From Pseudomonas sp. L5B5 (GTDB taxonomy: Bacteria; Pseudomonadota; Gammaproteobacteria; Pseudomonadales; Pseudomonadaceae): DNA of 64,000 nucleotides. A model generated the notes under the pieces. It did no database searches, was not told the origin of the DNA, and saw only the letters and a program-made list of their open reading frames with translations. The DNA lies in assembly GCF_020520285.1 (NCBI RefSeq), contig NZ_CP084742.1:3782001-3846000 (forward strand), given 5' to 3'. Positions 7,430 through 45,595 of the stretch are shown piece after piece (position 1 is the first letter of the stretch; every line of letters begins with the position of its first letter). Both the position numbers and the translations under genes were made by a program.

Positions 7430-7463
7430 GATCGATTCCTTATTCAAATTCCAGCGGCACGAC

Positions 7464-9025: not shown

Positions 9026-9257
9026 GATGACCACTCCCGGGTTCGTTTCGAACCACTGCAATGGGACGCCACCATCAAGCCTCCAGCCCCAGGATCGGTA
9101 GCGCCCGGGCCTCCCCTATTGCATCTCGAATGGCCAAGCCACGACAGGCTTGCATAGCCGGTCCGTCTCAAGCTCCCAAGTTTCAGTGTACGCCCCGGCA
9201 CCAGCGGTTTTAGATCGATTCGACACCAAGGCTTGAGCAAAGGCGCCTAAGGCCGCC

Positions 9258-9839: not shown

Positions 9840-9954
9840 CGTTGTCGTTCCTGATCGATCGAGAAAAGGCTGCCAGCATACCCGCGTCGATACAAATCAA
9901 GGGCACGGGTCGGCGCCGCACAATCCGCTCAGCACCGAGCGTGCGCCTGCCACC

Positions 9955-10275: not shown

Positions 10276-10396
10276 GCTCAAGGCTCCATTGATGTCTAGG
10301 ACTACCCGACTTTGGCCTGCCCGGATTATTCCCATGGCGGCGCATGGGAGTAAAGTTGCGGGCCCGCGCCCATTCGACTGCCAAGGAACTGTTCGC

Positions 10397-10726: not shown

Positions 10727-10766
10727 ACCTGACCCCTTCACTTCGGCCATCCAGGAACAATGTCCC

Positions 10767-11741
10767 ATGTCCCTGTTGTCACCCCCCGAACTGCCTGTCA
10801 CGAACTCCGCCAAGGTCGAACCTGCCAGCGGCCCCGGCGAAAGCTTCAGCGAACCGGCGGCAGACGGCTTCATGCTCGGCGGTTTCGCCTGGCGCCAGCC
10901 CCTGGCCAACCCGCAGCGCCCGGTGGTGATCATCTGCGCCGCCACCTCGGTACGCTGCCGCTACTACGTGCGTTTCGCCGACTACCTGTTCGCCCACGGT
11001 TTCGATGTCATGACCTACGACTACCGCGGCATCGGCGAATCCAGGCCTGCCTCGCTCAAGGGCTTCAAGGCCTCCTGGTCGGACTGGGGCACCCTGGACT
11101 TCGAAGCGATGCTGCAACGGGCCCAGCGGGAGTTTCCCGGCCAGCCGATCGACGTGGTGGGTCACAGTTTCGGCGGTTGCGCGGCGGGCCTGGGCAGCTC
11201 GGCAGGGCAGATCCGTCGTATCGCCACCATGGGTGCGCAGTTCGCCTACTGGCGCGACTACGCCCCACAGGAACGCTGGCGGATGCTGGGCAAGTGGCAC
11301 CTGGCAATGCCCCTGCTGACTCGCCTCTACGGCTATTTCCCCGGCAAGCGGCTGGGCTGGATGGAAGACACCCCGGCAGGCGTGGTCCGCGACTGGAGTA
11401 CCGCGCATCCGCGCTTCGAGGGCCGCCCCAGTGGCCGCAAGGTCGCCGCCCAGCGCAACGGGGGCCTTTTCAGCCACGTCAGCGCGCCGATCCTGGCCAT
11501 CAGCCTCAGCGACGACCCGTTCGGCACCGAAGCCGCCATCGAGCGCTTGCTGGGCTACTTCCACAACAGCCCGCGCACCCACTTGCGTATCCGTCCGCAG
11601 GACATCGGCGAAACCGCCGTCGGCCACTTCGCGTTCTTCCACAGCCGCTTCGAAACCCGGCTCTGGCCGATCATCCTCGGCTGGTTGCGCCACGGCGAGC
11701 TGGACAGCGCCAGTCCGGGGCGCATCGTTCCCAGGGCCTGA
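10767..11741 (+). CDS. Alpha/beta hydrolase
   Basis: This 324-residue cytosolic protein has the alpha/beta-hydrolase core. The nucleophile elbow is VVGHSFGG at about residues 131-138 (Ser nucleophile). An oxyanion-hole strand lies in VVIICAATSVRCRYYVRFADYL, and YDYRGIGESRP is the conserved lid-proximal motif. The late FAFFHSRF block supplies a plausible catalytic His (VGHFAFF). It matches the COG4757-type predicted hydrolases found in many pseudomonads, whose substrates are unknown. It lies downstream of the small membrane protein, spaced by 40 bases. Confidence 0.8.
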   Translation: MSLLSPPELPVTNSAKVEPASGPGESFSEPAADGFMLGGFAWRQPLANPQRPVVIICAATSVRCRYYVRFADYLFAHGFDVMTYDYRGIGESRPASLKGFKASWSDWGTLDFEAMLQRAQREFPGQPIDVVGHSFGGCAAGLGSSAGQIRRIATMGAQFAYWRDYAPQERWRMLGKWHLAMPLLTRLYGYFPGKRLGWMEDTPAGVVRDWSTAHPRFEGRPSGRKVAAQRNGGLFSHVSAPILAISLSDDPFGTEAAIERLLGYFHNSPRTHLRIRPQDIGETAVGHFAFFHSRFETRLWPIILGWLRHGELDSASPGRIVPRA

Positions 11742-11876
11742 GCGGCACCCGGGCGCCACCTCCCGGCCGATGGCAGGTGCTGCGACCCCGATTTACTGGC
11801 ATCCTTGCCCGCCTCACCGGCCGCTGCAGCAGCGCGGCCCATGCAATGCACCTTCAAGCAACAAGGTAAGACGCCC

Positions 11877-12287
11877 ATGGCATCTGCGGACAAGCAACAT
11901 AAAAGGGCCCAGCGGGCAAAAGCCAAGGCCAAGCAGAACCGCGCCAAACGCAGCGCACCGACCTCGGAACTGGAGCTGGATCCCAACGATAGCCGCATCG
12001 ATTTCGAATCGGTGGACCTGACCGAACTGTTCGTGAAAATGCGCGACGCCGAAAAAACCAGCCAGCAGGCCCTGTGCGCGGCGTTCCTCGCCGACCCGCT
12101 GCTGGAACTGGTGTATGAACAGGAAGGCGAACAGGGCGCCACCGACTTCATCCTCGCGGCGCTGATCGAGTACCGCAACTGGTCCACCGAGGCCGACGAA
12201 GCCAGCGCACTGGCCTGGATCGAGTCCGAAGCCTTCCAGGCCGACTACACCGCCGCTTCCCAGGCGCTGTTCAGCAGCGAAGGCTGA
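11877..12287 (+). CDS. Conserved hypothetical protein, basic N-terminus and acidic C-terminus
   Basis: This protein of about 136 residues uses the ATG at 11877; earlier in-frame starts at 11805 and 11841 are possible but precede a non-coding-like segment. Residues 1-30 are strongly Lys/Arg/Ala-rich (KQHKRAQRAKAKAKQNRAKR), suggesting a helix that binds nucleic acid or a partner. Residues 40-136 are acidic and helical, with several Trp and Glu clusters (LIEYRNWSTEADEASALAWI). I do not recognise a named family. The gene ends in a strong intrinsic terminator 15 bases downstream and could be read from the hydrolase promoter. Confidence 0.6.
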   Translation: MASADKQHKRAQRAKAKAKQNRAKRSAPTSELELDPNDSRIDFESVDLTELFVKMRDAEKTSQQALCAAFLADPLLELVYEQEGEQGATDFILAALIEYRNWSTEADEASALAWIESEAFQADYTAASQALFSSEG

Positions 12288-12301
12288 AACCGCCAGGCAT
12301 T

Positions 12302-12336
12302 AAAAAAGGGCGCATCCAGTGGATGCGCCCTTTTGC
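12302..12336 (+). terminator. Intrinsic bidirectional terminator
   Basis: AAAAGGGCGCATCC-AGT-GGATGCGCCCTTTT is a perfect stem with A and T runs on both sides. It serves the gene ending at 12287 and also the convergent gene ending at 12365. Confidence 0.9.
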
Positions 12337-12364
12337 ATTTCAGCTACAGGAGCCGACCCGATAC

Positions 12365-12685
12365 TCAGGCCGCTTCCAGCCGCGGGATTTCCATGCCGAT
12401 GCGCGAGCTGGCAAAGCTCAGGTCGCCGCTGGCGATGGACTGGGCCTTGAAGCCGGCACCGATCAGGTCACGGACATGCAGCTTGTTGTAGATGAACATG
12501 AACACCAGGTTGCTCAGGCCGAATGTGAACATGGACAGCAGGAACATGATCGCCGCCCATTTCCAGTCGGCACGGAACAGGGCCGGGATGAAACCGAAGA
12601 AGAACACGGTCCAGGAGAAACCGACTGGCGCTTCCTTGATGGCCCCGGTGTTCGGGTTTTTGAAAATGATTTTAGTGAACGCCAT
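12365..12685 (-). CDS. DUF2628-like small membrane protein
   Basis: This 106-residue protein begins MAFTKIIFKNPNTG. The hallmark segment APVGFSWTVFFFGFIPALFRADW (about residues 19-41) is followed by a second hydrophobic helix (AAIMFLLSMFTFGLSNLVF). Then comes FMFIYNKLHVRDLIGAGFKA, the NK-x3-RxLI-x-GF pattern seen in DUF2628/HrgC-type proteins. These are small inner-membrane proteins of unknown function, often with a cytoplasmic tail as here. The gene is convergent with its left neighbour and shares its terminator. Confidence 0.75.
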   Translation of the reverse strand: MAFTKIIFKNPNTGAIKEAPVGFSWTVFFFGFIPALFRADWKWAAIMFLLSMFTFGLSNLVFMFIYNKLHVRDLIGAGFKAQSIASGDLSFASSRIGMEIPRLEAA

Positions 12686-13063
12686 GCGCGTCTCCTTGCC
12701 GCCCCGTTATGAGGAACCAATGACCGGGCGATCACCATTGGACCCTGAATGCTTGGTTCTTCGGACAGGGACCACTGACCACGCCAAAGGCGAGTGCAAA
12801 CAGGTCAGGAGCAGGAAAGGCAGGGATGGTTCAAGGGAGGAGAGAGGCGGCCCCTGGGGCCCGACAAGCGTTCAATCCCTTGTACAACAGCGCTATTCCA
12901 TAGCTCCTCTCACGCTGGCACGCAAGAGCTCTTATCGAAGAGCGCGCAGGCTACTATTTCGCCTGCATGCTGTCCACGAAACGCCATGTAACAAGTCAAA
13001 AATCCAATAAAAAGGGCCACTGTCTATGTTGGCAGCAGCCTTTTTGGCCTTCAGACGATCAAA
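12686..13063. other. Gene-poor stretch
   Basis: Nothing convincing is coded here. Short open frames on the plus strand show no start signals or family resemblance. A hairpin with AAAAAGG/CCTTTTT arms lies at about 13009-13055 and would terminate leftward transcription from the questionable gene at 13064-13555. Confidence 0.5.
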
Positions 13064-13555
13064 TCACCAGCTGGGCATCAGGACGCCCTTGCGCTCCATC
13101 CGGGACAACCTGTCCCCCAATACCGTGGCGACGAACAGGATCACGCGTCGTAGCTCCAGCCCCCCGCTGGAGTCATCGACAGCTTGCCCGCCACCCGGAC
13201 CAGAACCACCCGCCAACAACAAAATCCTAACTTCGCCCGACCTGCATTCGTTCTGGTGAAAAGAAACCTCCAGGACATTGCCTATCTCGTACGCAAAGCC
13301 AGCACCAGGATGCTCCGCAGTCTCGCCGAGCCCGGTTGCCAACGTGCCCTCTGAAGAACTGCAAGCCATTGAGCCCAGAGGCATTTCGCCAGGCCACTGG
13401 TGGACGCCCCGACAGATCGTGCATCGCTGCCCGGCGCAAACAGAGTCCAAAAGTGCGAGACACACAAATAGGCAGCAGATCCACGACCTTTGGCCCGTTA
13501 ACCCTTCCAACACCCGGCCAAAGGTGGCACCATCGCGCCTTTTTTTACGCGACAC
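13064..13555 (-). CDS. Questionable hypothetical protein
   Basis: This 163-codon frame opens with GTG (VSRKKRRDG). It has a hydrophobic, Cys-rich segment at about residues 25-42 (WICCLFVCLALLDSVCAG) that looks like a signal peptide or anchor, then a Gly-rich stretch (LLLAGGSGPGGGQAVDD). It ends near VILFVATVLGDRLSRMERKG. Codon use is less GC3-biased than that of neighbours. Support: the frame is long, the N-terminus is sensible and a hairpin with a T run lies just past its end on the same strand. Against: there is no recognisable domain, no clear ribosome-binding site and competing frames overlap. It may be a recent acquisition or not a gene. Confidence 0.3.
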   Translation of the reverse strand: MSRKKRRDGATFGRVLEGLTGQRSWICCLFVCLALLDSVCAGQRCTICRGVHQWPGEMPLGSMACSSSEGTLATGLGETAEHPGAGFAYEIGNVLEVSFHQNECRSGEVRILLLAGGSGPGGGQAVDDSSGGLELRRVILFVATVLGDRLSRMERKGVLMPSW

Positions 13556-13754
13556 CCACCGGATCCAGGGTTCAAACGGGCGTTCGGTTGTTGATGGGGC
13601 GACAGTCAGCTGTGCCGATGCGACAACCTGTCACACGTCGCTCGTTTACCTCCGGCAGTGCTGTTGGCTGCGATTCGAACCCTATGCTAGCTTGGCGCCT
13701 CGCCAGGAAGGCAGCCCAACAGCAGGAGCACATTGAACTCTATGAGGACCGCAC

Positions 13755-14528
13755 ATGGCTGAGGCCACGCCCGCGCTTGAAATCCGCAACTTGCACAAAC
13801 GCTACGGCTCCCAGGAGGTACTCAAGGGTATCTCGCTGACCGCTCGCGACGGTGACGTGATATCGATCCTGGGGTCCTCCGGTTCCGGCAAGTCCACATT
13901 CCTGCGCTGCATCAACCTGCTGGAAAACCCGCACCAGGGCCAGATCCTGGTCGCCGGTGAAGAGCTCAAGCTCAAGCCCGCGAAAAATGGCGAGCTCGTC
14001 GCCGCCGACGGCAAGCAGATCAACCGCCTGCGCAGCGAAATCGGTTTCGTATTCCAGAATTTCAATCTCTGGCCGCACATGACGGTACTCGACAACATCA
14101 TCGAGGCGCCACGCCGGGTGCTGGGCCAGAGCAAGGCAGAAGCCATCGAGGTGGCCGAGGCACTGCTGGCCAAGGTCGGCATCGCCGACAAGCGCCACGC
14201 CTACCCGGCCCAATTGTCCGGCGGCCAGCAGCAACGCGCCGCCATTGCCCGGACCCTGGCGATGCAGCCCAAGGTCATCCTGTTCGACGAGCCGACCTCG
14301 GCCCTGGACCCGGAAATGGTCCAGGAAGTCCTCAACGTGATCCGCGCCCTGGCCGAAGAAGGCCGCACCATGTTGCTGGTCACTCATGAAATGAGCTTTG
14401 CCCGCCAGGTCTCCAGCGAAGTGGTGTTCCTGCACCAGGGTCTGGTAGAAGAGCAAGGCTCGCCACAGCAGGTCTTCGAAAACCCGCTTTCGGCACGCTG
14501 CAAACAATTCATGTCCAGCAACCGCTAA
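13755..14528 (+). CDS. Basic amino acid ABC transporter ATP-binding protein (HisP-like)
   Basis: This 257-residue ATPase energises import of a polar or basic amino acid. It has Walker A (GSSGSGKST, about residues 40-48), the Q-loop (FVFQNFNLWPHM), the signature LSGGQQQRAAIART, Walker B with the catalytic Glu (VILFDEPTSALDP) and the H-loop (LLVTHEMSF). The spacing and the extra YGSQEVLKGISL start match the HisP/AotP/OccP group. It begins a four-gene operon with a binding protein and two permeases, with GAGG upstream of the ATG. A regulator is not adjacent. Confidence 0.92.
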   Translation: MAEATPALEIRNLHKRYGSQEVLKGISLTARDGDVISILGSSGSGKSTFLRCINLLENPHQGQILVAGEELKLKPAKNGELVAADGKQINRLRSEIGFVFQNFNLWPHMTVLDNIIEAPRRVLGQSKAEAIEVAEALLAKVGIADKRHAYPAQLSGGQQQRAAIARTLAMQPKVILFDEPTSALDPEMVQEVLNVIRALAEEGRTMLLVTHEMSFARQVSSEVVFLHQGLVEEQGSPQQVFENPLSARCKQFMSSNR

Positions 14529-14541
14529 CGGAGCTACACGC

Positions 14542-15303
14542 ATGCAGAGCTATAAGAAAATCCTCCTGGCCGCTGCCGTCACCCTGGCCTTCAGCGCCAG
14601 CGCCGTCGCCGAGACCCTGAAAATGGGGATCGAGGCCGCCTACCCACCGTTCAACAACAAGGATGCCAGCGGCCAGGTCGTGGGCTTCGACAAGGACATC
14701 GGCGACGCCCTGTGCGCCAAGCTGAAAGTCGATAAGTGCGAAGTGGTCACCTCCGACTGGGATGGCATCATCCCGGCCCTGAACGCCAAGAAGTTCGACT
14801 TCCTGGTGTCTTCGCTGTCGATCACCGACGAGCGCAAGCAGGCGGTGGACTTCACCGACCCGTACTACTCCAACAAGCTGCAGTTCATCGCTCCCAAGAA
14901 AGTCGACTTCAAGATCGAGAAGGCCTACCTCAAGGGCAAGGTGATCGGCGCCCAGCGCGCGACCCTGGCCGGCACCTGGCTGGACGATCGCAACATGGAA
15001 GACGACTACGACGTGAGCATCAAGCTCTACGACACCCAGGAAAACGCCTACCTCGACCTGCTCTCCGGCCGCCTGGACGGCATCCTGGCCGACAAGTACG
15101 TGCAGTACGAATGGCTCAAGAGCAAGGACGGCCAGAACTTCGAGTTCAAGGGCGAGCCCGTGGTTGAAAGCGACAAGATCGGTATTGCCGTGCGCAAGGG
15201 CGACCCGCTGCGCGAACGCCTGAACAAGGCACTGGCCGAGATCAAGGCCGACGGCACCTACAAGAAAATCAACGACAAGTACTTCCCTTTCAGCATCGAA
15301 TGA
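14542..15303 (+). CDS. Periplasmic Lys/Arg/Orn/His-type amino acid binding protein
   Basis: This 253-residue exported receptor has a Sec signal at residues 1-23 (ILLAAAVTLAFSASAVAE). The mature part opens with TLKMGIEAAYPPFNNKDASG and continues with VGFDKDIGDALCAKL. It carries two Cys (about 55 and 62) that form the small disulfide of the HisJ/ArgT family. SSLSITDERKQAVDFTDPYY is the classical ligand-binding strand, and ADKYVQYEWLK precedes the C-terminal lobe. The receptor captures a basic amino acid in the periplasm and hands it to the two downstream permeases. The start has GGAG 8 bases upstream. Confidence 0.92.
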   Translation: MQSYKKILLAAAVTLAFSASAVAETLKMGIEAAYPPFNNKDASGQVVGFDKDIGDALCAKLKVDKCEVVTSDWDGIIPALNAKKFDFLVSSLSITDERKQAVDFTDPYYSNKLQFIAPKKVDFKIEKAYLKGKVIGAQRATLAGTWLDDRNMEDDYDVSIKLYDTQENAYLDLLSGRLDGILADKYVQYEWLKSKDGQNFEFKGEPVVESDKIGIAVRKGDPLRERLNKALAEIKADGTYKKINDKYFPFSIE

Positions 15304-15376
15304 TCCTGCATTGCCTGGCCGGCGCACTCCTCTGAGTGCGCCGCACTTCTGCAACGCCTTGCGATATGACTAGACC

Positions 15377-16072
15377 ATGAACTTCGACCTCTACGGATTC
15401 GGCCCGGCGCTTGCCGCTGGCGCGCTGATGACCGTCAAACTGGCCCTCTCGGCCCTGTGCCTGGGGCTGGTGCTCGGCCTGGCCGGCGCGCTGGCCAAGA
15501 CTTCGCCCTACAAGCCGCTGCAATGGCTGGGCGGCGCCTATTCGACGTTGGTACGCGGCGTTCCGGAATTGCTGTGGGTACTGCTGATCTATTTCGGCAC
15601 GGTAAACGGGATGCGGGCCCTGGGAGAATTCCTCGGCAACCCCGACCTCGAACTCAACGCCTTCAGCGCCGGGGTCATCGCCCTCGGCCTGTGCTTTGGC
15701 GCCTATGCCACGGAAGTGTTCCGGGGTGCGCTCCTGGCCATTCCCAAGGGCCACCGTGAAGCCGGCCTCGCCCTGGGCCTGTCCAAATGGCGGATTTTCT
15801 CGCGATTGGTCATGCCGCAGATGTGGCGCGTCGCCCTGCCCGGCCTGGGCAACCTGTTCATGATCCTGATGAAGGACACCGCCCTGGTGTCGGTGATCGG
15901 CCTGGAAGAAATCATGCGCCATGCGCAGATCGGCGTGACCGTCACCAAGCAGCCGTTCACCTTCTACATGGTCGCCGCCTTCATGTACCTGGGCCTGACC
16001 ATCCTGGCCATGATCGGCATGCACTTCCTGGAAAAACGCGCCGCTCGCGGCTTCGCAAGGAGCGCCCAATGA
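15377..16072 (+). CDS. Amino acid ABC transporter permease (HisQ-like)
   Basis: This 231-residue inner-membrane permease has about five helices. The ATPase-contact EAA loop is GHREAGLALGLSKWRIFSRLVMPQMWR (about residues 120-146; HisQ style). Its last four bases overlap the start of the second permease (ATGA), so the two form the heterodimeric channel. The gap of 73 bases after the binding-protein gene contains a hairpin-like GCGCACTC/GAGTGCGC sequence (about 15322-15343). Such structures often lower downstream expression relative to the abundant receptor. Confidence 0.92.
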   Translation: MNFDLYGFGPALAAGALMTVKLALSALCLGLVLGLAGALAKTSPYKPLQWLGGAYSTLVRGVPELLWVLLIYFGTVNGMRALGEFLGNPDLELNAFSAGVIALGLCFGAYATEVFRGALLAIPKGHREAGLALGLSKWRIFSRLVMPQMWRVALPGLGNLFMILMKDTALVSVIGLEEIMRHAQIGVTVTKQPFTFYMVAAFMYLGLTILAMIGMHFLEKRAARGFARSAQ

Positions 16073-16758
16073 ACTGGGAAGTGATCATCAAGTGGCTGCC
16101 AAAGCTGGCCCAGGGCGCAACCCTGACCCTGGAGCTGGTGGCCATCGCCGTTACCGCCGGCCTGCTGCTGGCCATCCCGCTGGGCATCGCCCGCTCGTCC
16201 CGCCTGTGGTACGTGCGCATCGTGCCCTACTGCTACATCTTCTTTTTCCGTGGTACGCCGCTGCTGGTGCAACTGTTCCTGGTGTACTACGGCCTGGCGC
16301 AGTTCGATGCGGTGCGTGAAAGCTCGCTATGGCCTTACCTGCGGGATCCGTTCTGGTGCGCCACCGCCACCATGACCCTGCATACCGCAGCCTATATCGC
16401 CGAGATCCTGCGGGGCGCGATCCAGGCCATTCCGCCCGGGGAAATCGAAGCGGCGCGGGCCCTGGGCATGTCCAAGCCCAAGGCCCTGCTCTACATCATC
16501 CTGCCGCGGGCAACACGCATCGGCCTGCCGGCCTACAGCAACGAAGTGATCCTGATGCTCAAGGCCAGTGCCCTGGCCAGCACCGTGACCCTGCTGGAAC
16601 TGACCGGCATGGCCCGGACGATCATTGCCCGGACCTATCTGCCGGTGGAGATCTTCTTTGCCGCGGGGCTGTTCTACCTGCTGATGGCCTACATCCTGGT
16701 ACGCGCCTTCAAGCTGTTGGAGCGCTGGCTGCGGGTCGACGCCTGCCAGGGACGCTGA
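16069..16758 (+). CDS. Amino acid ABC transporter permease (HisM-like)
   Basis: This 229-residue permease starts MNWEVIIKWLPKLAQGATLTLE. The start ATG overlaps the previous stop codon, which favours it over longer in-frame openings. RGTPLLVQLFLVYYGLAQFD (about residues 60-79) and the EAA loop IPPGEIEAARALGMSKPKAL (about 123-142) are HisM/AotM hallmarks. It forms the second half of the membrane channel of the basic amino acid importer encoded just upstream. Confidence 0.92.
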   Translation: MNWEVIIKWLPKLAQGATLTLELVAIAVTAGLLLAIPLGIARSSRLWYVRIVPYCYIFFFRGTPLLVQLFLVYYGLAQFDAVRESSLWPYLRDPFWCATATMTLHTAAYIAEILRGAIQAIPPGEIEAARALGMSKPKALLYIILPRATRIGLPAYSNEVILMLKASALASTVTLLELTGMARTIIARTYLPVEIFFAAGLFYLLMAYILVRAFKLLERWLRVDACQGR

Positions 16759-16805
16759 GCCCGTCCGCTCCCGCCAGGGAGCGGTCCTGCCCCGGACGCC
16801 ACACC

Positions 16806-18017
16806 ATGTCCCCACCCCTCCAAGGCCCCGCCCTGCTGACTCGCTTCCAGGCTCTGGGCGGCTTTCTCCTGGAACACCAGGAGCTGTGGCGCCCGCGCCC
16901 CTTCCACCACCTGCACCTGCCCTGGGAATCCCGCTATCCACAGCTGGCCCTGTGGCTGCGCCAGCGCTCCCTGGAAGACGCCGAGGCCGCCCACAACCAT
17001 CCGGAGCAGCTCCAGGCACCGGCCCCCTTCGGCGAACTGGCCGCGCGCTCCCGGGCCCTGTCTGCCGTGGCCGAGTTGCCTGGCCAGGGACTGCCGCCCC
17101 TGCGCCAGCGCCTCAGCGTCGATGTACCTGGACGCAAGTGGCAGCAGATCGAGGCCTTCGCCGCCTGCCTGCAATTCGCTAGCGCCCCCGGGCACTGGCT
17201 CGACTGGTGCTCCGGCAAGGGCCATCTCGGGCGACGCCTGCTGCAAGACGGGCAATGCCTGACTTGCCTGGAGCACGACCCGGCGCTGGTGGCCAGCGGC
17301 GAGCAATTGAGCCGCCACCACGGCCTGCCCGCCACCCATCTGCAGCAGGACGTCCTGGCCACGACGGCGGCGGCTCAGCTGACAGTCGAGCACAGCCCGG
17401 TGGCCCTGCACGCCTGCGGCGATCTGCACGTGCGCCTCATGCAGCTGGCCAGCCAGGCAGGCTGTCGCCAGCTGGCCATCGCCCCGTGCTGCTACAACCG
17501 CACGGGCGCCAGCCATTACCGGGGTTTATCCACAGCCGGCCAGGCTTGCGGCCTGACACTGTCCCTGGATGACCTGGCCCTGCCCATGAGCGAGACCGTG
17601 ACCGCCGGCGCCCGGGTGCGCCGCCAGCGCGACACCTCCATGGCCCGCCGCCTGGCCTTCGACCTGCTGCAACGCCAGTTGCCCGGGGTCGACGACTACC
17701 TGCCGACCCCCTCGCTGCCCAGCCACTGGCTGGACAAGCCGTTCGCCGAATACTGCCGCGACCTGGCGGCTCTCAAGCAGTTGTCCACAGTCGGCGCGCA
17801 AGACTGGCCGGCGCTGGAGGCCGCCGGCTGGCAGCGCCTGGCCCAGGTACGCAACCTGGAGCTGCTGCGCGGCCTGTTCCGCCGCCCCCTGGAGTTGTGG
17901 CTGGTACTGGACCGGGCGCTGTTCCTCCAGGAGCAGGGTTATGCCGTGCGCCTGGGAACCTTCTGCCAGGCCTCCTTGACCCCGCGCAATCTGCTGCTAC
18001 TGGCAGAACGCCGATAA
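16806..18017 (+). CDS. METTL25-like SAM-dependent methyltransferase
   Basis: This is a 403-residue protein. The ATG at 16806 is used; the frame is open upstream but runs inside the permease. The methyltransferase core begins near residue 134 with WLDWCSGKGHLGRRLL, the SAM-binding motif I. CLEHDPALVASGEQL is motif II, VALHACGDLHVRLMQ (about 200) follows, and IAPCCYNRTG (about 225) is the conserved CCY signature of the METTL25/GSTCD-type family. The N-terminal 130 residues and a C-terminal helical part are family-typical. The target is unproven. It lies 47 bases after the transporter operon and may be separately expressed. Confidence 0.8.
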   Translation: MSPPLQGPALLTRFQALGGFLLEHQELWRPRPFHHLHLPWESRYPQLALWLRQRSLEDAEAAHNHPEQLQAPAPFGELAARSRALSAVAELPGQGLPPLRQRLSVDVPGRKWQQIEAFAACLQFASAPGHWLDWCSGKGHLGRRLLQDGQCLTCLEHDPALVASGEQLSRHHGLPATHLQQDVLATTAAAQLTVEHSPVALHACGDLHVRLMQLASQAGCRQLAIAPCCYNRTGASHYRGLSTAGQACGLTLSLDDLALPMSETVTAGARVRRQRDTSMARRLAFDLLQRQLPGVDDYLPTPSLPSHWLDKPFAEYCRDLAALKQLSTVGAQDWPALEAAGWQRLAQVRNLELLRGLFRRPLELWLVLDRALFLQEQGYAVRLGTFCQASLTPRNLLLLAERR

Positions 18018-36444: not shown

Positions 36445-36520
<76 letters not shown>

Positions 36521-36565
36521 TTCAAGGTTCCATAGAAAGCTTTCAAAATCTCTGGAACCCCCGAA

Positions 36566-36591
36566 AAACCCGCTTTCTGGCGGGTTTTTTC
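36566..36591 (+). terminator. Intrinsic terminator after tRNA-Thr
   Basis: AAACCCGC-TTTCTG-GCGGGTTTTTT ends tRNA transcription before the integrase. An extra GGTTCCA/TGGAACC inverted repeat (36526-36559) precedes it. Confidence 0.85.
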
Positions 36592-36683
36592 GTTTTGGCG
36601 TTCCGTCGGATTCCGAGGGTAGCCAGCGCTAATAAGGGTAGTTTTAAGGATAGAGGTCCGTTTCGATATCGGAGACTACCCTT

Positions 36684-38003
36684 ATGGCCCGCACCACTGC
36701 CCCGCTTACAGACACCGCCTGTCGCACGGCAAAGCCCAAAGAGCGCGAATACAAGCTCTTCGACGGCGACGGTCTTTACCTGCTTGTGCAACCCAACGGC
36801 CGCAAAGGCTGGCGACTCAGGTACGTGAAACCTGATGGCCGCGAAGGCCTGACCGCCCTCGGCAGCTATCCGGTGGTCGGGCTAGGCGACGCACGCCGCA
36901 AGCGCTTCGAGATCAAACAGCAGCTCGCCAACGGCATAGATCCCATCCAGTACAAGCAACAAACCAAGACTCAGGCCGTGATCAACGGTCGGACCTTCGA
37001 AAGCGTTGCGCTCGACTGGCACGCCAGCATGGTGCCCAAGTGGGCGCCCGGCCACGCCAAGACAGTGCTCAGCCGATTGAAAACCCACGTGTTCCCTTTA
37101 ATCGGTGCCAGAGCAATCGTTGAGCTGGACACCCACGACCTCATGCAGCCACTGGAAGCCGTGACGAAGCGCGGCACGATCGACGTGGCGCTCAGGATCA
37201 AGAACTACCTGCAAAGCATCATGCGTGAAGCCAAACGGCTGCGACTGATCACGGCGAACCCGGCTCACGACCTCGATGGCTCGATCAAGACACCACGGGT
37301 AACTCACCGGCCCGCACTCCCCCTATCACGACTCCCAGAGCTATTGGCTTGCATCGAGGACTACAGAGGTCGCCCACTCACGCGCCTCACGGTGATGCTG
37401 TCGTTGCATGTATTCGTACGCTCCAGCGAACTGCGCTTCGCCCGTTGGAATGAGTTCGACCTCAAGTGCGGAATCTGGGAGATTCCCGACACCCGCCCGG
37501 CGCTGGACGGAGTGCCCTTTTCCACAAGGGGTACGAAGATGGCCGGGGACATTCACGTTGTACCCTTATCGCCGCAAGCCGTGGCCTTGCTCGAGCAGAT
37601 CCACGCGATCACCGGCAAATTCGAGCTGGTGTTCGCTGGCGATGCCAAGCCATGGAAACCGATGTCCGAGAACACGGTGAATGCCGCGCTCAGGACGATG
37701 GGTTACGACACCAAGGTGGATATTTGCGGCCACGGGTTCCGAGCCATGGCGTGCAGTGCGCTGGTCGAGTCCGGGCTGTGGTCAGAGACGGCCATCGAAC
37801 GGCAGATGAGCCACAAGGAACGCAACAACGTGCGGGCCGCTTATACCCACAAGGCCGAGTTCCTCGAAGAACGCCGGATGATCATGACCTGGTGGAGCCG
37901 GTTTCTGGAGGCGAACCGCGAGGACCATGTGACGCCGCATGAGTTTGCCAAGCAGACGGGCGAGAACGTCACGCGGCTTCGCAGTGCCAAGAGGACCGAG
38001 TAA
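36684..38003 (+). CDS. P4-type tyrosine integrase
   Basis: This 439-residue site-specific recombinase catalyses insertion and excision of the island. The N-terminal DUF4102 arm-binding domain (about residues 5-90) contains LTDTACRTAKPKEREYKLFD and GLYLLVQPNGRKGWRLRY. The catalytic domain has the first Arg in HVFVRSSELRFARW (about 236-249). HGFRAMACSALVESG supplies the H-x-x-R pair (about 348-362). ERQMSHKERNNVRAAYTHKAE (about 371-390) is the C-terminal motif, with Tyr in AAYTHK as nucleophile. Gene orientation away from the tRNA and adjacency to attL match P4-family islands. The sequence appears intact. Confidence 0.93.
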   Translation: MARTTAPLTDTACRTAKPKEREYKLFDGDGLYLLVQPNGRKGWRLRYVKPDGREGLTALGSYPVVGLGDARRKRFEIKQQLANGIDPIQYKQQTKTQAVINGRTFESVALDWHASMVPKWAPGHAKTVLSRLKTHVFPLIGARAIVELDTHDLMQPLEAVTKRGTIDVALRIKNYLQSIMREAKRLRLITANPAHDLDGSIKTPRVTHRPALPLSRLPELLACIEDYRGRPLTRLTVMLSLHVFVRSSELRFARWNEFDLKCGIWEIPDTRPALDGVPFSTRGTKMAGDIHVVPLSPQAVALLEQIHAITGKFELVFAGDAKPWKPMSENTVNAALRTMGYDTKVDICGHGFRAMACSALVESGLWSETAIERQMSHKERNNVRAAYTHKAEFLEERRMIMTWWSRFLEANREDHVTPHEFAKQTGENVTRLRSAKRTE

Positions 38004-38036
38004 CCCGCCGCACCACCACCTCAACTCGCTGTGAAG

Positions 38037-38240
38037 TTACCCACAGCACCGCATGAAGCTCCTCCGCGCGGGTCCTTTCAAACGGGGCTGCAAAGCCGCC
38101 CCGTTTGAAAGGACCATATCTCAGAAAAAACTGCTGGCACAGCTTACGTCTGTGGAAAACCACTAATGTCCACCGGGGGATAGTTTTATCCACAGGCGCT
38201 AAATCCCTGATATCGCGCTGCTTGACGAATATTGTCCACA
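38037..38240. promoter_or_regulatory. Cluster of DnaA-box-like nonamers
   Basis: TTACCCACA (38037-38045), TGTGGAAAA (38151-38159, reverse strand TTTTCCACA), the consensus box TTATCCACA (38186-38194) and TTGTCCACA (38232-38240) lie within about 200 bases. One perfect and three near-consensus sites in a short AT-moderate region could mark an origin of the excised island or a DnaA-controlled promoter. The two-strand arrangement and the adjacent large hairpin support a functional site only weakly. Confidence 0.35.
38071..38115. repeat. Perfect 18-bp inverted repeat (hairpin)
   Basis: GGTCCTTTCAAACGGGGC (38071-38088) and its exact complement (38098-38115) are separated by 9 bases. No T run follows, so it is more than an ordinary terminator. 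It lies 68 bases after the integrase stop. Confidence 0.8.
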
Positions 38241-38475
38241 AGCGTAGACCGGGAGTCGCAAGAGCTGTCGATGACAGCACCCCAGGTGACCCGAACCTTT
38301 AAGGTCACGCCGCTCCCTCGGTGGTTCACCCGCAAGTACGATTCGCGTCCGGCAGCTCGTACGGTCACTACCCATGTGATGGATGCCAACTCAATATCGT
38401 TGCCCCTGCGGTAACCACCCTACCCATCTGCTCAGCAGCAGCCTATCCGCTTGGCCATTTCGCGTGCGCCAACCT

Positions 38476-38509
38476 GCGCCCGTCTCTTTCACTGGAAAGA
38501 GACGGGCGC
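38476..38509. repeat. Perfect 15-bp inverted repeat (hairpin)
   Basis: GCGCCCGTCTCTTTC and its exact complement are separated by ACTG. There is no following T run. Confidence 0.75.
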
Positions 38510-38909
38510 TCATGACACTGCTGCAGCCCTGATCGCACATGGCTCAGCCGCAATTCCCCTCGTGACAATTGGCGTGACAAACACCGATGTCACCAGCAAC
38601 AGCCATGCAGATGATGGTGCCGCAGACCAGGAAATGGACTGCACCTGACTGACAGTCAGGCATGCCCCGGTCATCACATGCTGCGTTCACCCGACTCAGG
38701 ATCTCGCGGCACTGGTCTCGTCAGCCAATGCAGCCTCCGCCCGCCCACCGGTAACGGTGTTCAGGAGGCCAGATCATGAGATGCCCTTGCTCCCGGACGT
38801 AAGGAGCCGCCAGTCCCGCGTTAGAGGACATCCCCACAGGTCGCAGGGGCCTTGATCCCTGATAACACTCAGCATTCTTGGCGGGATGACGTGAGGGAGA
38901 GATTGGCAA

Positions 38910-39390: not shown

Positions 39391-39648
39391 ATGGCTTTCG
39401 TCGGTTCTTGTGCCTTAATTGGTAGCACTGTGGCAACGTCGCGAAAAGCTTTGCATATGACGCAGCGCCAGCTGGCAGATACTGCGGGTGTGGGAGTGCG
39501 GTTTATTGTTGACCTAGAAGCTGGTAAAGAAACAGTCAGGATGGGATTGGTTTTAGTCGTTCTTTCCGCTTTAGGGATAAATATAAACTTGGAGAAAGCG
39601 AGTTGCCCCCTCATTGAAGAGAGTGTCATAGGGGGAGTGAATGGCTAG
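39391..39648 (+). CDS. HipB-like XRE family transcriptional repressor
   Basis: This is an 85-residue DNA-binding protein. The helix-turn-helix is LIGSTVATSRKALHMTQRQL (residues 9-28), then ADTAGVGVRFIVDLEAGKET and LVLVVLSALGINI. This closely follows the HipB pattern (TQ-x2-LA-x3-GV-x2-RFI-x-DLE-x-GK-x-TV). No HipA kinase gene accompanies it; instead it is followed, with an 8-base overlap (ATGGCTAG), by a radical SAM gene. It probably binds the palindrome at 39323-39338 and represses its own operon. The start has only a weak GGA upstream. Confidence 0.85.
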   Translation: MAFVGSCALIGSTVATSRKALHMTQRQLADTAGVGVRFIVDLEAGKETVRMGLVLVVLSALGININLEKASCPLIEESVIGGVNG

Positions 39649-40414
39649 TTACATCTCAGGCACTAAGGACCGTATTTTCATAAACCCCACTTTAGGATGT
39701 GACTCTAACTGCTCCTATTGTTATTTAGGAACACAAGGCCTAGATATTGGGAAAAAAACTATAAGCCCCAAAAGTGCTGAGTTTCTGATTGAAGGTCTGC
39801 TTGCTTTCCCGGGTTTTAGAAAAGGTAAGGAAGGGACAGTCATCTCTATTGGATGCTACTCAGAGTGTTGGAGCCCCGCTAATATCGCCGTCACAAAAGA
39901 CTTTATAAAAACAGCACTCGAATTTTTGAATCCGATACAGTTCGCGACAAAACGCTCGGTTAGCACTACTCAGCTAGCAGATATTTTTCCATTAATAGAG
40001 TGGAGCGGGCAGCTATCTTTATTTATATCATGTTCAACAATATCTCAATGGCGCACCTATGAAAAAGGAACATCAAAACCTCAAGACAGATTCAGAGAAA
40101 TAACCCAACTGCTGTCGAACGGCTTAAAGGTTTGCATTTACATCAAGCCTGTACTAGATGGCGTTACAATAAATGATTTGGATCTATTCGCCGACGTGAT
40201 AGATCGCACTGGCTGCTCTGTAGTTATCGGTGACATATTTAATTTTACATCACCAAACAGTAGGCCAGATTTGATTAAGGCGCCAATTCCTTCAACTGGA
40301 CTCTATGTCTGCGCTAGCAATGACATGGAATACATTTTAAACTTCTTTCGCATGAAAGAGTACATCTGTTATAATAACAGTGTCGACGCCATTAATTTCT
40401 GGAGGTCCGAATGA
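39641..40414 (+). CDS. Radical SAM enzyme (spore photoproduct lyase-like, COG1533-type)
   Basis: This 257-residue protein has the [4Fe-4S] motif C-x3-C-x2-C at residues 20, 24 and 27 within NPTLGCDSNCSYCYLGTQG. The next conserved strand TVISIGCYSECWSPANIAVT (about residues 67-86) corresponds to the SIGSYTDPYQP region of COG1533/SPL-like radical SAM proteins, with Cys in place of Asp/Pro. Later motifs are KVCIYIKPVLDGVTINDL and VVIGDIFNFTSPN. It is shorter than SPL and has no clear second cluster or substrate-recognition domain. It should generate a 5'-deoxyadenosyl radical; the substrate is unknown. GGGGGAG precedes the ATG. It overlaps both neighbours. Confidence 0.85.
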   Translation: MASYISGTKDRIFINPTLGCDSNCSYCYLGTQGLDIGKKTISPKSAEFLIEGLLAFPGFRKGKEGTVISIGCYSECWSPANIAVTKDFIKTALEFLNPIQFATKRSVSTTQLADIFPLIEWSGQLSLFISCSTISQWRTYEKGTSKPQDRFREITQLLSNGLKVCIYIKPVLDGVTINDLDLFADVIDRTGCSVVIGDIFNFTSPNSRPDLIKAPIPSTGLYVCASNDMEYILNFFRMKEYICYNNSVDAINFWRSE

Positions 40415-40839
40415 ACTCAAATAATGAAATTATATATGTAAAAGACAGAATCAATGAGATTGAAGGCAAAGACTTGCCTACAGCAATTTCCTCATTCTCT
40501 GACCCCCAGAACTTAATTGTAGCCCTGCTCGGCAGTTTAGGGTTTGACCCCGTTTCTTACGACCAGAAAGATACTGAATACCATTACTACTCAATAATTC
40601 AATCTCAGAAAGTTGATTTGGTTGTATTTGATACCAGGTCCCGGAGCTTGAGCGGGCATGCCGTATCTGACTTAGAAGCGGCTTTTTCTATAGTGAAGGC
40701 TATTGAGGGCTCTCTTAGTGACGCAATGTATTTTCCTCCTGACCTGAGAAAGAAAGTGGTCGACTCCGTAATAAGTGATGCAGGTGTTGATGAAGATTTC
40801 TTTAAGAAAGTCCTGGCGGGCTGGAAAGCATATAAGTGA
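40411..40839 (+). CDS. Unknown cassette protein, 142 residues
   Basis: This 142-residue soluble protein starts MNSNNEIIYVKDRIN. The sequence has LIVALLGSLGFDPVSY and KVDLVVFDTRSRSLSGHAVS (about residues 70-89), then a helical C-terminus KKVVDSVISDAGVDEDFFKK. I recognise no family or catalytic motif. The gene overlaps the radical SAM gene by four bases (ATGA) and the next gene by four (GTGA), so it is translated with them and probably works in the same complex or pathway. AT-rich codons match the cassette. Confidence 0.7.
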   Translation: MNSNNEIIYVKDRINEIEGKDLPTAISSFSDPQNLIVALLGSLGFDPVSYDQKDTEYHYYSIIQSQKVDLVVFDTRSRSLSGHAVSDLEAAFSIVKAIEGSLSDAMYFPPDLRKKVVDSVISDAGVDEDFFKKVLAGWKAYK

Positions 40840-41663
40840 ATACTATGAGTGACGTGCTTTCAGGACTAAATACATTTTCAGGCGAGTTCTTTACTGCAGC
40901 CGTACTTGCGATACTTGCGCTAGGGGGAATTTTGACTCTCCTAGAGTGGAGTGGTTTTTTACCTCAGGCCTTGTCGAGGTTTTTGCTACGAAATAGAGTC
41001 AGGGAACTTAAAGACATTTTAAAAGATCTGGGAGTAGACTTTTCCGAACAAAAAAAAGTACGATTTCGATCGAAGCTTGCTTCATATTTTGATGGAAATT
41101 CCGACATTGCTTCCGAAGTAAAAAAAATTATAGCTAAACACTTGAGGAAAGGCGACTTTAAAGTCGGCCGCACTTCTGACTTTAAAATTAAGGACTTCGC
41201 CGATTTGATGTCCGCCTCGTGCGACCCGAAAGAGGCAGTATTAATTGCTAGGTGCCTAAGCACATACTTGAAAAATAATATCTCTGAGTTTAGTGCTGAC
41301 TCTTTCGACTTCGTAGCATGCCCGAAGAGTGGCTCGCCATTTATCGCTTATGAGTTTGCTAAAATCTTGCAAAAACCATTGGTATTGCACGATTGTCACG
41401 AGGAAAAGTACCGAGTGGACGACCCGACACTAAGTGCCCTATCGAAAATTGATTATGGATTCGATCTAAGGCCAGGCATGGTTGGCTTGGTCGTAGATGA
41501 TAGCACTACTGGCGGAAGGAAAGTCTGCTCACTAGTGAGCGATCTGCGTCACTTCGGCTGTGTAATTGGCGACTGTCTTGTGGCCTTCGAACCACAAGGG
41601 AAAAATGGGAAGAATCTTCTTTTATCAAATGGCGTTAGACTTCATTCGATTGTTAAGCGGTGA
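40836..41663 (+). CDS. Membrane-anchored phosphoribosyltransferase-like protein
   Basis: This 275-residue protein uses GTG at 40836 (GTGA overlap with the previous stop); an ATG three codons later is an alternative. A hydrophobic helix at about residues 19-37 (AAVLAILALGGILTLLEWS) suggests membrane attachment. The C-terminal half has the PRPP-binding motif of type I phosphoribosyltransferases, VGLVVDDSTTGGRKVCSLV (about residues 219-237). FVACPKSGSPFIAYEFAKIL is a preceding strand (PPi-loop-like), comparable to orotate phosphoribosyltransferase. The middle region (about 60-130) is Lys-rich. It probably transfers or removes ribose-5-phosphate on a base or nucleotide; this activity is inferred, not shown. 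Confidence 0.75.
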   Translation: MNTMSDVLSGLNTFSGEFFTAAVLAILALGGILTLLEWSGFLPQALSRFLLRNRVRELKDILKDLGVDFSEQKKVRFRSKLASYFDGNSDIASEVKKIIAKHLRKGDFKVGRTSDFKIKDFADLMSASCDPKEAVLIARCLSTYLKNNISEFSADSFDFVACPKSGSPFIAYEFAKILQKPLVLHDCHEEKYRVDDPTLSALSKIDYGFDLRPGMVGLVVDDSTTGGRKVCSLVSDLRHFGCVIGDCLVAFEPQGKNGKNLLLSNGVRLHSIVKR

Positions 41664-41666
41664 CGT

Positions 41667-42344
41667 ATGGGAAAAATAATTGCGATCGAAGGTATTGATG
41701 GTAGTGGTAAAAACACTCAGTCAAATAAAATCCTTCAAGGCTTTTTAGATAGTGGCTTTAAGTGCGAGAAAATGTCTTTCCCACGATATGGAGAGACGTT
41801 TTTTGGCCGTGAAGTTGGGCGCTACCTAAATGGGGAATTTGGCAGTCTCGAGTCCATCAGCCCTAAGCTTTCGGCAATGCTGTATGCTGGCGATAGATAC
41901 GAGTCTAGAGATGATATTCTAAGCAAGATTGGCGGCAACGGAATTCTTATTTGTGACCGTTATGTTTATTCTAACGTCGCCCATCAAAGCGCAAAACTTT
42001 CAACTGAAGCCCGCGATGAAATTTCGCAATGGATTGAAGAGTTAGAATTCAATATCTACAAGTTACCCAAGCCAGACCTGACAATCTTTCTCGACGTCCC
42101 CCCGTCAGTTTCAGGAAACTTGATCCTTAAAAAAGAGTTAAGGGATTACACCGACAAAAAGAAAGACCTTCACGAAGAGGACGAAAGCTACCTTGAAAAG
42201 GTCTATCATGTCTTTAAAAAGCTTGCCTGCGAAACGCCCGACTGGATCATAATTGACTGCTTTGAGAACGGTTTATTACTTGGCGAAAATGAGATTTATG
42301 AAAAAATCAGAACGGAGCTAGTAAAGCGAGACTTTTACAGTTGA
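41667..42344 (+). CDS. Thymidylate kinase-like nucleoside monophosphate kinase
   Basis: This 225-residue kinase has Walker A IEGIDGSGKNT (about residues 7-17). The thymidylate kinase substrate block FPRYGETFFGREVGRYLNGE (about 38-57) follows, and ILICDRYVYSNVAHQSAKL (about 94-112) carries the DR-Y motif of dTMP kinases. LTIFLDVPP is the strand before the lid. It is a second tmk-type gene beyond the host's chromosomal one, placed 3 bases after the phosphoribosyltransferase gene. It most likely phosphorylates a (modified) nucleoside monophosphate made or altered by the upstream enzymes. AT-rich codons match the cassette. Confidence 0.85.
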   Translation: MGKIIAIEGIDGSGKNTQSNKILQGFLDSGFKCEKMSFPRYGETFFGREVGRYLNGEFGSLESISPKLSAMLYAGDRYESRDDILSKIGGNGILICDRYVYSNVAHQSAKLSTEARDEISQWIEELEFNIYKLPKPDLTIFLDVPPSVSGNLILKKELRDYTDKKKDLHEEDESYLEKVYHVFKKLACETPDWIIIDCFENGLLLGENEIYEKIRTELVKRDFYS

Positions 42345-42794: not shown

Positions 42795-42817
42795 TTCGAC
42801 TCTTGGTGCCGCACCAT
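42795..42817 (+). repeat. attR, degenerate copy of tRNA-Thr 3' end
   Basis: This begins TTCGACTCTTGGTGCCGC and ends in the CCA-containing tail. Relative to attL it has one substitution and one deletion. Same orientation as attL, 6.3 kb away, so it defines the right end of the island. Confidence 0.8.
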
Positions 42818-42825
42818 ATAAAACG

Positions 42826-42858
42826 AAGCCTCTGCAGAAATGCAGGGGCTTTGTTGTT
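42826..42858 (+). terminator. Intrinsic terminator beyond attR (original tRNA-Thr terminator?)
   Basis: GCCTCTGCA-GAAA-TGCAGGGGC (42828-42849), followed by TTTGTTGTTT. Its position just outside attR suggests that it was the terminator of tRNA-Thr before the island inserted. Confidence 0.7.
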
Positions 42859-43119
42859 TCCAGGCTCCAGAAATCCTGTCCCCATGCCTTCAGCACGGTT
42901 GTGATCTCGGTGCTTCACCGCCTGCCCCCTCGCCTGCCCCTGGCTTCGCACACTGGCCTCATTCATTTTTGAAGTGCGCCCTGCCTGAAAGCACGCTGAT
43001 ATTGTTGCTGATTCGCCCCTTGTGTTGGCTGCACGGTCGTCAGCACCGCTGCGTCAAACGTTTTGCGCTAGTGTTTCCCTGCGGACCAGGACGGTCCTTT
43101 GACGCAGGTGCAAACGCTC

Positions 43120-44466: not shown

Positions 44467-45027
44467 ATGAAGAAAGTAATGCTTTGTTTTGCCTTGTTAT
44501 TTGGTTTCACATGCAGTTCTGCCATGGCAGCCCGCCCCGACTATCCCTTTGATGATTCGATCGCTACCGGCTTGTCGCGCCACCATATTATTCCGTGGGA
44601 AGAACTGGTCGAGTTTGGTACCGACAACTTTACCAGCGATGCAGACAGAACGACCTTGATCAATGCCATTATCGGCACCCGCAAGGTCAATCTCGGTTCA
44701 TTCCAGAATGATATACCGACGTTGGTCAAAGGACTGAATCCGCCGAAAAATTCCGAAGCAGTGGAGGTCTGGCAATCGTTACTGGCCTGGACTCAGGGCA
44801 ATCTGGTCGTGGGAACCAATGCTCGCCCTGATGACCCTGGTAGCAAGTTTGATGAAGTTGCCTATACCTGTCTGAAAGCTGTCAACCCCGACAATAACTA
44901 TACTAAAATCTTTAATGATTGGAAGAATAAAAGTAAGGACGCTGATCAGAAAAAAAAGGATTTCCTGATGATGGCAGCGCATGACATCGCGAATGCCGCA
45001 GGCCAGCCATGCTGGACTAATCCTTGA
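44467..45027 (+). CDS. Secreted protein with HHIIP motif (possible His-Me-finger nuclease)
   Basis: This is a 186-residue protein with a clean Sec signal peptide (VMLCFALLFGFTCSSAMAA, cleavage near residue 22) and a strong AAAGGAG site before the ATG. The mature N-terminus contains SRHHIIPWEELVEF (about residues 37-50). An H-H-I-I-P start is characteristic of the xHH branch of HNH/endonuclease VII-like nucleases, often polymorphic toxin ends. A Cys pair (YTCLKAVNP and GQPCWTNP) could form a disulfide after export. The remaining motif of a full nuclease is not certain, so the call is tentative. The genes are less GC-rich than neighbours and are followed closely by a partner gene. Confidence 0.6.
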   Translation: MKKVMLCFALLFGFTCSSAMAARPDYPFDDSIATGLSRHHIIPWEELVEFGTDNFTSDADRTTLINAIIGTRKVNLGSFQNDIPTLVKGLNPPKNSEAVEVWQSLLAWTQGNLVVGTNARPDDPGSKFDEVAYTCLKAVNPDNNYTKIFNDWKNKSKDADQKKKDFLMMAAHDIANAAGQPCWTNP

Positions 45028-45058
45028 TTTCAATCATCATGACGCGCAGGAAAAAATC

Positions 45059-45595
45059 ATGGCTAATATTATTACCGTAGGTAGCATCACGACCCCTAAT
45101 CCTTTTCTTTGGTTGAATCCGGATACGTTGGGCCTGCCCGATGTCGTCTACGTCATTCAATCAAATGCTCCAAAAGGCGACTGGGTAGATGTAGGGCAGT
45201 TCTGCGCAGTGCTATCAAGCGCCTGGCTCAATGATGCCAAACATCCAGCACAGTTCGATATTAAAAGCTTTGACGATCCGGGCAAAATTCAGTTGGCCCA
45301 GCAAGTGATTGAGGCATCGAATAGTTTGGCCTCACAAGTAAAAGCGGCGGAGCAGGCGATACACGGCAATTCCAAGTCGAAGGACCAGGTTACAAAGGAG
45401 TTTTCGGCATACAAAACCGGCACTAAAACCTGGGCAGGAAATGATAGGCATGTCATCGGCATCTACATAATTAGCGCCACGGAAATGCAAGTTTATGATT
45501 CGAACCTGGGAACCGCAACCAAAAAGTCGCGCACCGTCTTTGCGCAAGTACTGAAGGATTATGCATTGAATGCTTTTGTAGTGGCTGCTGCTTAA
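45059..45595 (+). CDS. Partner of the HHIIP protein, unknown function
   Basis: This protein of about 178 residues has no signal peptide, so it is predicted to be cytosolic. Features: a hydrophobic-polar N-terminus ITVGSITTPNPFLWLNPDTL, PDVVYVIQSNAPKGDWVDVG (about residues 29-48) and a helical Lys/Gln-rich middle (VKAAEQAIHGNSKSKDQVTK). The C-terminus is VFAQVLKDYALNAFVVAAA. The gene lies 31 bases after the secreted HHIIP gene, with AGGA before the ATG, suggesting co-expression. An immunity-like role would require the effector to act in a compartment this protein reaches; as a cytosolic protein it could only protect against re-entry. I cannot assign a family. Confidence 0.5.
   Translation: MANIITVGSITTPNPFLWLNPDTLGLPDVVYVIQSNAPKGDWVDVGQFCAVLSSAWLNDAKHPAQFDIKSFDDPGKIQLAQQVIEASNSLASQVKAAEQAIHGNSKSKDQVTKEFSAYKTGTKTWAGNDRHVIGIYIISATEMQVYDSNLGTATKKSRTVFAQVLKDYALNAFVVAAA

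Follow-up and report, generated by a model that had tools for sequence, protein, structure and literature searches.

A five-gene operon of nucleotide-enzyme relatives, carried by a tRNA-Thr element of Pseudomonas, as a candidate anti-phage cassette

Viperins associate a radical S-adenosylmethionine (SAM) enzyme with a nucleotide kinase of the thymidylate kinase (TMK) fold and yield a chain-terminating nucleotide, and the phosphoribosyltransferase (PRTase) family PRTase_III-A is linked to retrons. Protection against T7 and lambda is reported for DprA combined with a PRTase (PMC9122126), while DefensePredictor places thymidylate synthase and 5-hydroxymethyluracil kinase among newly validated defence domains, with deoxynucleoside monophosphate (dNMP) kinase and PRTase among the abbreviations in its figure legends (PMC13092281), and on the strength of these two reports nucleotide enzymes are an accepted kind of defence component. 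In this article, I will discuss a five-gene cassette of Pseudomonas sp. L5B5 that encodes a repressor, a radical SAM enzyme, a 142-residue protein, a membrane-anchored PRTase and a TMK-like enzyme, found in a window of 64,000 nucleotides (the whole stretch of DNA that was analyzed; NCBI RefSeq assembly GCF_020520285.1, contig NZ_CP084742.1, positions 3,782,001 to 3,846,000 of the forward strand; positions below count from its first base). The cassette probably represents an undescribed bacterial anti-virus defence, as judged from sequence comparison, and the most likely specific reading, to which I give a probability of roughly 0.4, is that it is cargo of a tRNA-Thr element and an anti-phage system acting on nucleotides.

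That the cassette belongs to a mobile element is near certain. In the window, 6.3 kb holding a tyrosine integrase, a radC RNA and the operon part a tRNA-Thr(TGT) gene from its flanking DNA, and positions 42795-42860 match DNA that, in L024, L025 and L026, all from the same genus, runs on directly from an intact tRNA-Thr(TGT), these three genomes showing the empty integration site; the search for such sites covered 38 genomes including L5B5 itself, 11 of them with any match. Of 199 genomes of the genus, 58 match the integrase at E<=1e-150, its own among them, with up to 99% identity. Ten sister elements (L067-L076) were taken from the best other genomes with an unbroken integrase frame (integrase identity 86-99%), and all ten have a tRNA-Thr immediately upstream of the integrase; eight have a second attachment (att) copy downstream, with none in the 16.2 kb of L068 and L072 ending with its contig. 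Five of the ten were compared with the window as DNA, and all five align with it at 89-93% identity over the stretch between the tRNA and base 38901, where the match ends, the radC RNA lying between integrase and cargo within this conserved block. Since backbone homology ends at 38901 and the att copy starts at 42795, the segment between them is the swapped cargo, of which the operon is the sole recognizable coding content.

These results bear out much of an initial annotation made from the sequence alone, which had described an operon sitting by itself on a small tRNA island; the bounds of that island can now be given as the tRNA-Thr (36445-36520) and the right att copy (from 42795). A re-check of the open reading frames (ORFs) returned the same five plus-strand genes at 39391-42344, overlapping by 8, 4 and 4 bases before a 3-base gap, with no internal stop in any of them, and their AT-rich composition was likewise recovered (41-48% G+C against 57-71% across the remaining window, setting aside the operon's own AT-rich region at 39-43 kb and a stretch of 49% at 44-46 kb). 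Family scans also agreed with the domain calls for every named part: HipB, a weak radical SAM match (CxxxCxxC, residues 20-27), the phosphoribosyl pyrophosphate (PRPP) motif with its helix, and TMK. Beyond the element, a further AT-rich ORF pair (44467-45595) encodes a 186-residue protein that looks secreted and another of 204 residues, with no confident Pfam family.

Table 1. Features of the element and its operon (window coordinates)
Feature	Position	Strand	Basis or remark
tRNA-Thr (anticodon TGT), integration site	36445..36520	+	left att copy at its 3' end
Tyrosine integrase, 439 aa	36684..38003	+	Pfam
Conserved backbone (tRNA, integrase, radC RNA)	36445..38901	.	DNA comparison with sister elements
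radC RNA motif, Rfam RF01754	38250..38386	+	64 bits against a gathering score of 40
Exchangeable cargo segment	38902..42794	.	between backbone end and right att
16-bp perfect palindrome TTTCCCGATCGGGAAA	39323..39338	.	about 50 bases upstream of the repressor gene
HipB/Y4mF-like XRE repressor	39391..39648	+	85 aa; TIGR03070 match
Radical SAM enzyme, SPL/PA0069-like	39641..40414	+	257 aa; C20, C24, C27 cluster motif
142-aa protein, fold unassigned by family models	40411..40839	+	5 relatives in protein database
Membrane-anchored type I (orotate-PRTase-like) phosphoribosyltransferase	40836..41663	+	275 aa, GTG start
Thymidylate kinase-like enzyme	41667..42344	+	225 aa; Pfam, NCBIfam matches
Right att copy, degenerate tRNA-Thr 3' end	42795..42818	+	DNA comparison

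An anti-virus role is probable because anti-virus systems are frequent cargo at this site in close relatives of the element. A first sample came from the att search (L033-L036, leaving out the weaker att matches L029 and L030), and its ORFs of at least 150 residues (five of six in L034, five of five in both L035 and L036, seven of eight in L033) were scanned with PADLOC at E<=1e-5, giving a match in four loci of four, a raw count with no background rate beside it. L036 (integrase identity 82%) carries a complete Hachiman system (HamA 413 bits, HamB 1067 bits), L035 (80%) a PD-T4-6-like kinase (108 bits) with a UvrD-like ATPase, and L034 (80%) capP (158 bits) with a DUF6791-ThiF protein, while L033, which has only an integrase remnant, holds CARF (324 bits), PRTase_III-A (115), type II methyltransferase (MTase; 143) and AbiD (204) genes. 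The second sample consisted of the largest cargo ORF of each integrase-selected element, nine in all once L072 had been dropped because its contig ends; for L069 the next-largest ORF was used, its largest being a 341-residue gene that recurs after the integrase (the like-placed 326-residue gene in L034 is an Integrase_1). Four of these nine matched PADLOC (L076 at 300 bits, L073 at 93, a WYL protein of L069 at 83 and, weakly, L067 at 29.5) and five did not, nor did an extra second ORF of L073. With every locus matched in the first sample and only four of nine in the second, defence cargo is frequent but not universal. Profiles of the operon's radical SAM, 142-residue, PRTase and TMK proteins found nothing at E<=1e-3 in 14 sister loci. 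Two further features of the sister cargo deserve mention: beside Hachiman, L036 (845-2820) has a deoxycytidine triphosphate deaminase-like gene (PF22769, 52 bits) with neighbours, possibly a second nucleotide-targeting defence gene, and L068 and L070 share, at about 5-11 kb, a near-symmetric set of recurring 494- and 328-residue genes, of which the scanned 494-residue proteins have no PADLOC match.

At the depth of the protein search, the PRTase, radical SAM and 142-residue families are rare, and the first two travel together. Among 5.8 billion clustered proteins the search found 46 relatives of the PRTase, 41 of the radical SAM enzyme and 5 of the 142-residue protein, and the closest relatives with an organism name come from Pseudomonas. 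Reading a shared contig from equal lengths of the longest contigs, six PRTase/radical SAM match pairs coincide exactly where 0.16 are expected, and two of the five 142-residue matches coincide with radical SAM matches where 0.011 are expected, both expectations being rough local-density estimates. In the IMG/VR prophage L005, radical SAM and PRTase genes whose products are about one third identical to those of the window overlap by 4 bases just before the contig end, in a cargo position after an endolysin-type gene (read from sequence). Over eight pairs (the window, L005 and the six pairs matched by longest contig) the radical SAM and PRTase protein distances correlate with r 0.885 (p 0.0008), and without L005 with r 0.57 (p 0.011). 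I rate the linkage of the two genes as near certain. In a Loktanella metagenome-assembled genome (L003), the PRTase gene has an AAA_28 kinase-like gene after it and then a convergent TMK gene 37% identical to that of the window; CARF_STK_AAA (1607 bits), a C5-cytosine MTase (type II MTase, 273 bits) and, as read from sequence, an integrase-like gene are neighbours, and the 20.8 kb covered contain no radical SAM relative. The initial annotation had staked its proposal on homologues of these genes being neighbours elsewhere, and for two gene pairs they are: radical SAM and PRTase genes are linked, and PRTase and TMK genes lie one gene apart in this one other locus. The L003 island as a whole (6000-18000) comprises an integrase-like gene, XRE, a membrane protein, PRTase, AAA_28, TMK, a 164-residue protein, C5-MTase and a CARF-kinase-ATPase. 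Phages searched for the PRTase and for the radical SAM protein of L005 yielded no relative, nor did plasmids searched for the PRTase, P0038 and P0026 or IMG/VR searched for the 142-residue family, P0079 and P0045; a genome-contig search with a single protein, whose reach is close relatives, gave one locus, and PRTase and radical SAM profiles run on samples with one genome per species returned the starting genomes only (1/398, 1/298, 1/394, here G686 itself, and 1/398).

The PRTase carries the PRPP loop DDSTTGG, which has the paired Asp of type I enzymes and is invariant in 25 aligned PRTases, a K-x-G-S-P stretch that is invariant or almost so, and a single N-terminal hydrophobic helix kept in all 25. 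Its closest solved structures are orotate PRTases (E 1e-9); it scores 20.9 bits on Pfam PF00156, under the 26.3 cut-off, and 18.6 bits on the orotate PRTase model TIGR00336 against a cut-off of 106.8. The conserved helix, along with the PRTase genes of the DprA-PRTase system (PMC9122126) and of sister L033 (PRTase_III-A), would also suit an anti-phage mechanism in which the membrane PRTase is itself the sensor or effector, by binding PRPP or a nucleoside monophosphate, depleting a pool or damaging the membrane, with the other enzymes modulating it. I regard this as unlikely: the window PRTase matches no PADLOC family at E<=1, PRTase_III-A models included, and a conserved radical SAM partner would be left unexplained.

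That partner has a weak radical SAM Pfam match, and its sequence kinship is with the group of spore photoproduct lyase (SPL) and PA0069: the PA0069 family is its best NCBIfam match, although at 47.7 bits it stays far under the cut-off of 360, and the SPL model TIGR04070 gives 19.0 bits against 400. SPL is a repair enzyme for thymine lesions that uses a Cys/Tyr relay (PMC3742179), and Cys72 and Tyr28 of the window protein, both invariant across 28 aligned sequences, align with the fourth Cys (C141 Bs / C140 Gt) and Tyr99/98 of that relay (HHalign probability 87.4%). The AlphaFold2 model (predicted local distance difference test score 94.3) resembles RlmN, SPL and viperin about equally in a structure search. 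No PADLOC family matches the protein at E<=1 in a library that I take to include viperin models.

The TMK-like protein is clearly recognized by Pfam (E 1.5e-23; 83.9 bits against a cut-off of 27), passes TIGR00041 marginally (83.5 against 83.25 bits) and falls short of the thymidine monophosphate (dTMP) kinase model NF005923 (159.8 against 193 bits). It retains the Walker A, FPRY, DRY and SN motifs of the Mycobacterium tuberculosis-type enzyme, in which a Tyr disfavours ribose; at that aligned position the window protein and L014 have His, L003 and L013 Tyr, and L015 Phe. Similarity to TMK alone is not specific, since IMG/VR contigs contain relatives as well (40, 37, 29 and 26% identical). On one of these, a 176-kb contig (L013:5006-6708), the TMK gene with 40% identity comes directly after a gene that reads, from its sequence, like adenosine deaminase. 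The retained dTMP-kinase motifs, the lesion repair by SPL (PMC3742179) and the finding that the essential thymidylate kinase activity of P. putida KT2440 comes from an island-borne dNMP kinase (PMC10653934) could together suggest a metabolic cargo instead, in other words a nucleotide salvage or repair module, with a backup dTMP-type kinase, a PRTase and a radical SAM enzyme mending damaged pyrimidines, to the benefit of the host or the element and with no block on phages. This, too, seems unlikely to me, given that the KT2440 kinase is termed T4-type (PMC10653934), that salvage would account poorly for a repressor and a membrane PRTase, and that family rarity and defence-rich sister cargo better match conflict.

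The 142-residue protein is matched by no family of Pfam, PADLOC or NCBIfam and only weakly by PHROG, and its five relatives are each at least 50% identical to it. The 164-residue Loktanella ORF beside the TMK gene was considered as a homologue for its shared SDL and SDAM motifs and rejected: an earlier profile score was circular, the ORF itself having been within the profile, and once it was left out the profile gave an E of 1.1 and HHalign a probability of 5-6%, with BLASTP at an E of 38.

On plasmids, radical SAM matches amount to 15 records, all less than 60% identical, the two with a named family among the matches listed being PA0069. The best match lies in a cluster on Agrobacterium pAt1 (L011, NZ_CP048575.1:121912-138442) that encodes an SPL/PA0069-like radical SAM enzyme, tmk, two pyrF, NUDIX, pyridoxal phosphate enzymes, ATP-grasp and a major facilitator superfamily protein. 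Were this distant relative the right guide, the cassette might make a nucleoside-like small molecule, an antibiotic or a signal, directed against other bacteria, which I consider improbable: the pAt1 radical SAM protein, at 30.5% identity, carries Pro where the window protein has Cys72, the TMK of the cluster reaches 128 bits on TIGR00041, as an ordinary dTMP kinase would, and family scans reveal neither exporter nor ligase nor further tailoring gene in the operon. In its own right, L011 looks like an uncharacterized nucleotide-derived metabolite pathway.

The first gene of the operon is HipB/Y4mF-like, which might point to a HipB-type toxin-antitoxin or addiction module retaining the element, yet this is very improbable, since the protein stays just short of the TIGR03070 cut-off (71.3 against 71.65 bits), family scans find neither a HipA-like kinase nor a toxin family match among the other four genes, and XRE genes are common regulators of cargo. 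The palindrome upstream of it, whose 14-base core is unique in the window at up to two mismatches (0.18 matches expected), is likely a candidate operator for this XRE repressor; a scan for promoters and terminators yielded no more than shuffled sequences did. That unrelated island genes were stacked by chance and share no function, for which one might cite the differing gene set of the Loktanella locus and a 142-residue protein with close relatives only, is scarcely credible in the face of overlapping genes and a radical SAM-PRTase linkage that is far above chance and extends to a prophage with such distant proteins.

The preferred reading, an anti-phage nucleotide pathway, thus draws on a defence-carrying element family, the recurrence in a prophage, the CARF and MTase neighbours and the parts list, with Hachiman, capP, AbiD, CARF, PRTase_III-A and the PD-T4-6-like kinase at sister loci and CARF_STK_AAA and MTase in L003 providing the context. 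In its favour on the chemical side are the conserved Cys/Tyr pair of SPL type, the intact TMK motifs and the invariant PRPP loop, together with the tmk, two pyrF and NUDIX genes around the distant radical SAM relative on pAt1 and the protection given by DprA with a PRTase (PMC9122126). The parts list points to attaching, altering and phosphorylating a pyrimidine-type nucleotide, and the regulation, order of steps, substrate and phage target that I infer would be as follows. The XRE protein would hold the operon low via the palindrome in front of it; once a phage infects, the membrane-anchored orotate-PRTase-like enzyme would use PRPP to make (or in reverse open) a pyrimidine-type nucleotide; the SPL-like enzyme would alter the pyrimidine, or the sugar, by hydrogen abstraction, with Cys72 and Tyr28 giving the hydrogen back; and the TMK-like enzyme would phosphorylate the product, a host kinase step then leading to a triphosphate that may poison phage DNA or RNA synthesis or act as a signal. 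The parts, the operon and the mobile island of the initial annotation are borne out, and the sister defence cargo supports its anti-phage role; the chain terminator or signal that it named would be a possible product. Its parallel with viperin holds as an analogy (a radical SAM enzyme near a nucleotide kinase), no PADLOC model matching the radical SAM protein at E<=1, the fold being about as close to RlmN and SPL as to viperin, and the sequence kinship being with SPL/PA0069. A bolder proposal, that an SPL-type Cys72/Tyr28 relay remodels a membrane-made pyrimidine nucleotide for activation by a TMK-fold kinase, making this a new defence class in which the strategy of viperin arose independently a second time, is doubtful. 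If true, it would represent a second radical-SAM route to antiviral nucleotides, from an enzyme group other than viperin and with its own base-attaching enzyme, and could supply new antiviral nucleotide chemistry as well as test directly in what way SPL-type enzymes came by new substrates. Should the chemistry prove to be another, the tRNA-Thr(TGT) element family would still matter, since it is an integration hotspot with swapped cargo (Hachiman, capP, AbiD, PRTase_III-A and other genes) and usable for finding further defence genes.

Literature searches in full text (titles and abstract starts, most subscription papers lying outside) found no description of this five-gene set, and the gene combination looks new. 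PP_1964, the KT2440 kinase mentioned above, is likewise a nucleotide kinase delivered by a genomic island, and is set apart from the window kinase by its description as T4-type and its place in a 65-kb island inside tmk (PMC10653934). DprA-PRTase and PRTase_III-A share with the cassette a PRTase within an anti-phage locus, but the operon has neither DprA nor reverse transcriptase, and the PRTase_III-A models match the gene of sister L033 and not that of the window. PDC-M51B, the TMK-like component of the PADLOC candidate system PDC-M51, gives weak matches of 32.1 bits to the TMK of the window and 60.0 bits to that of Loktanella, as does VakA (20.8 and 30.3 bits); no other PDC-M51 part is matched, and the name PDC-M51 was not found in the defence literature checked for it. 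With the SPL/PA0069 group, the radical SAM protein shares the CxxxCxxC motif, the Tyr following its third Cys and the fourth Cys, but it has 257 residues against models of 348 and 338 positions, lies far below both cut-offs and travels with nucleotide enzymes. The nearest known idea would be viperin with its kinase neighbour, by analogy in the association of a radical SAM enzyme with a TMK-fold kinase; the enzyme group differs, as the window protein combines an SPL-like Cys/Tyr relay with the absence of any PADLOC match, and the operon adds a membrane PRTase, a 142-residue protein and a repressor. The cassette is a testable candidate for defence.

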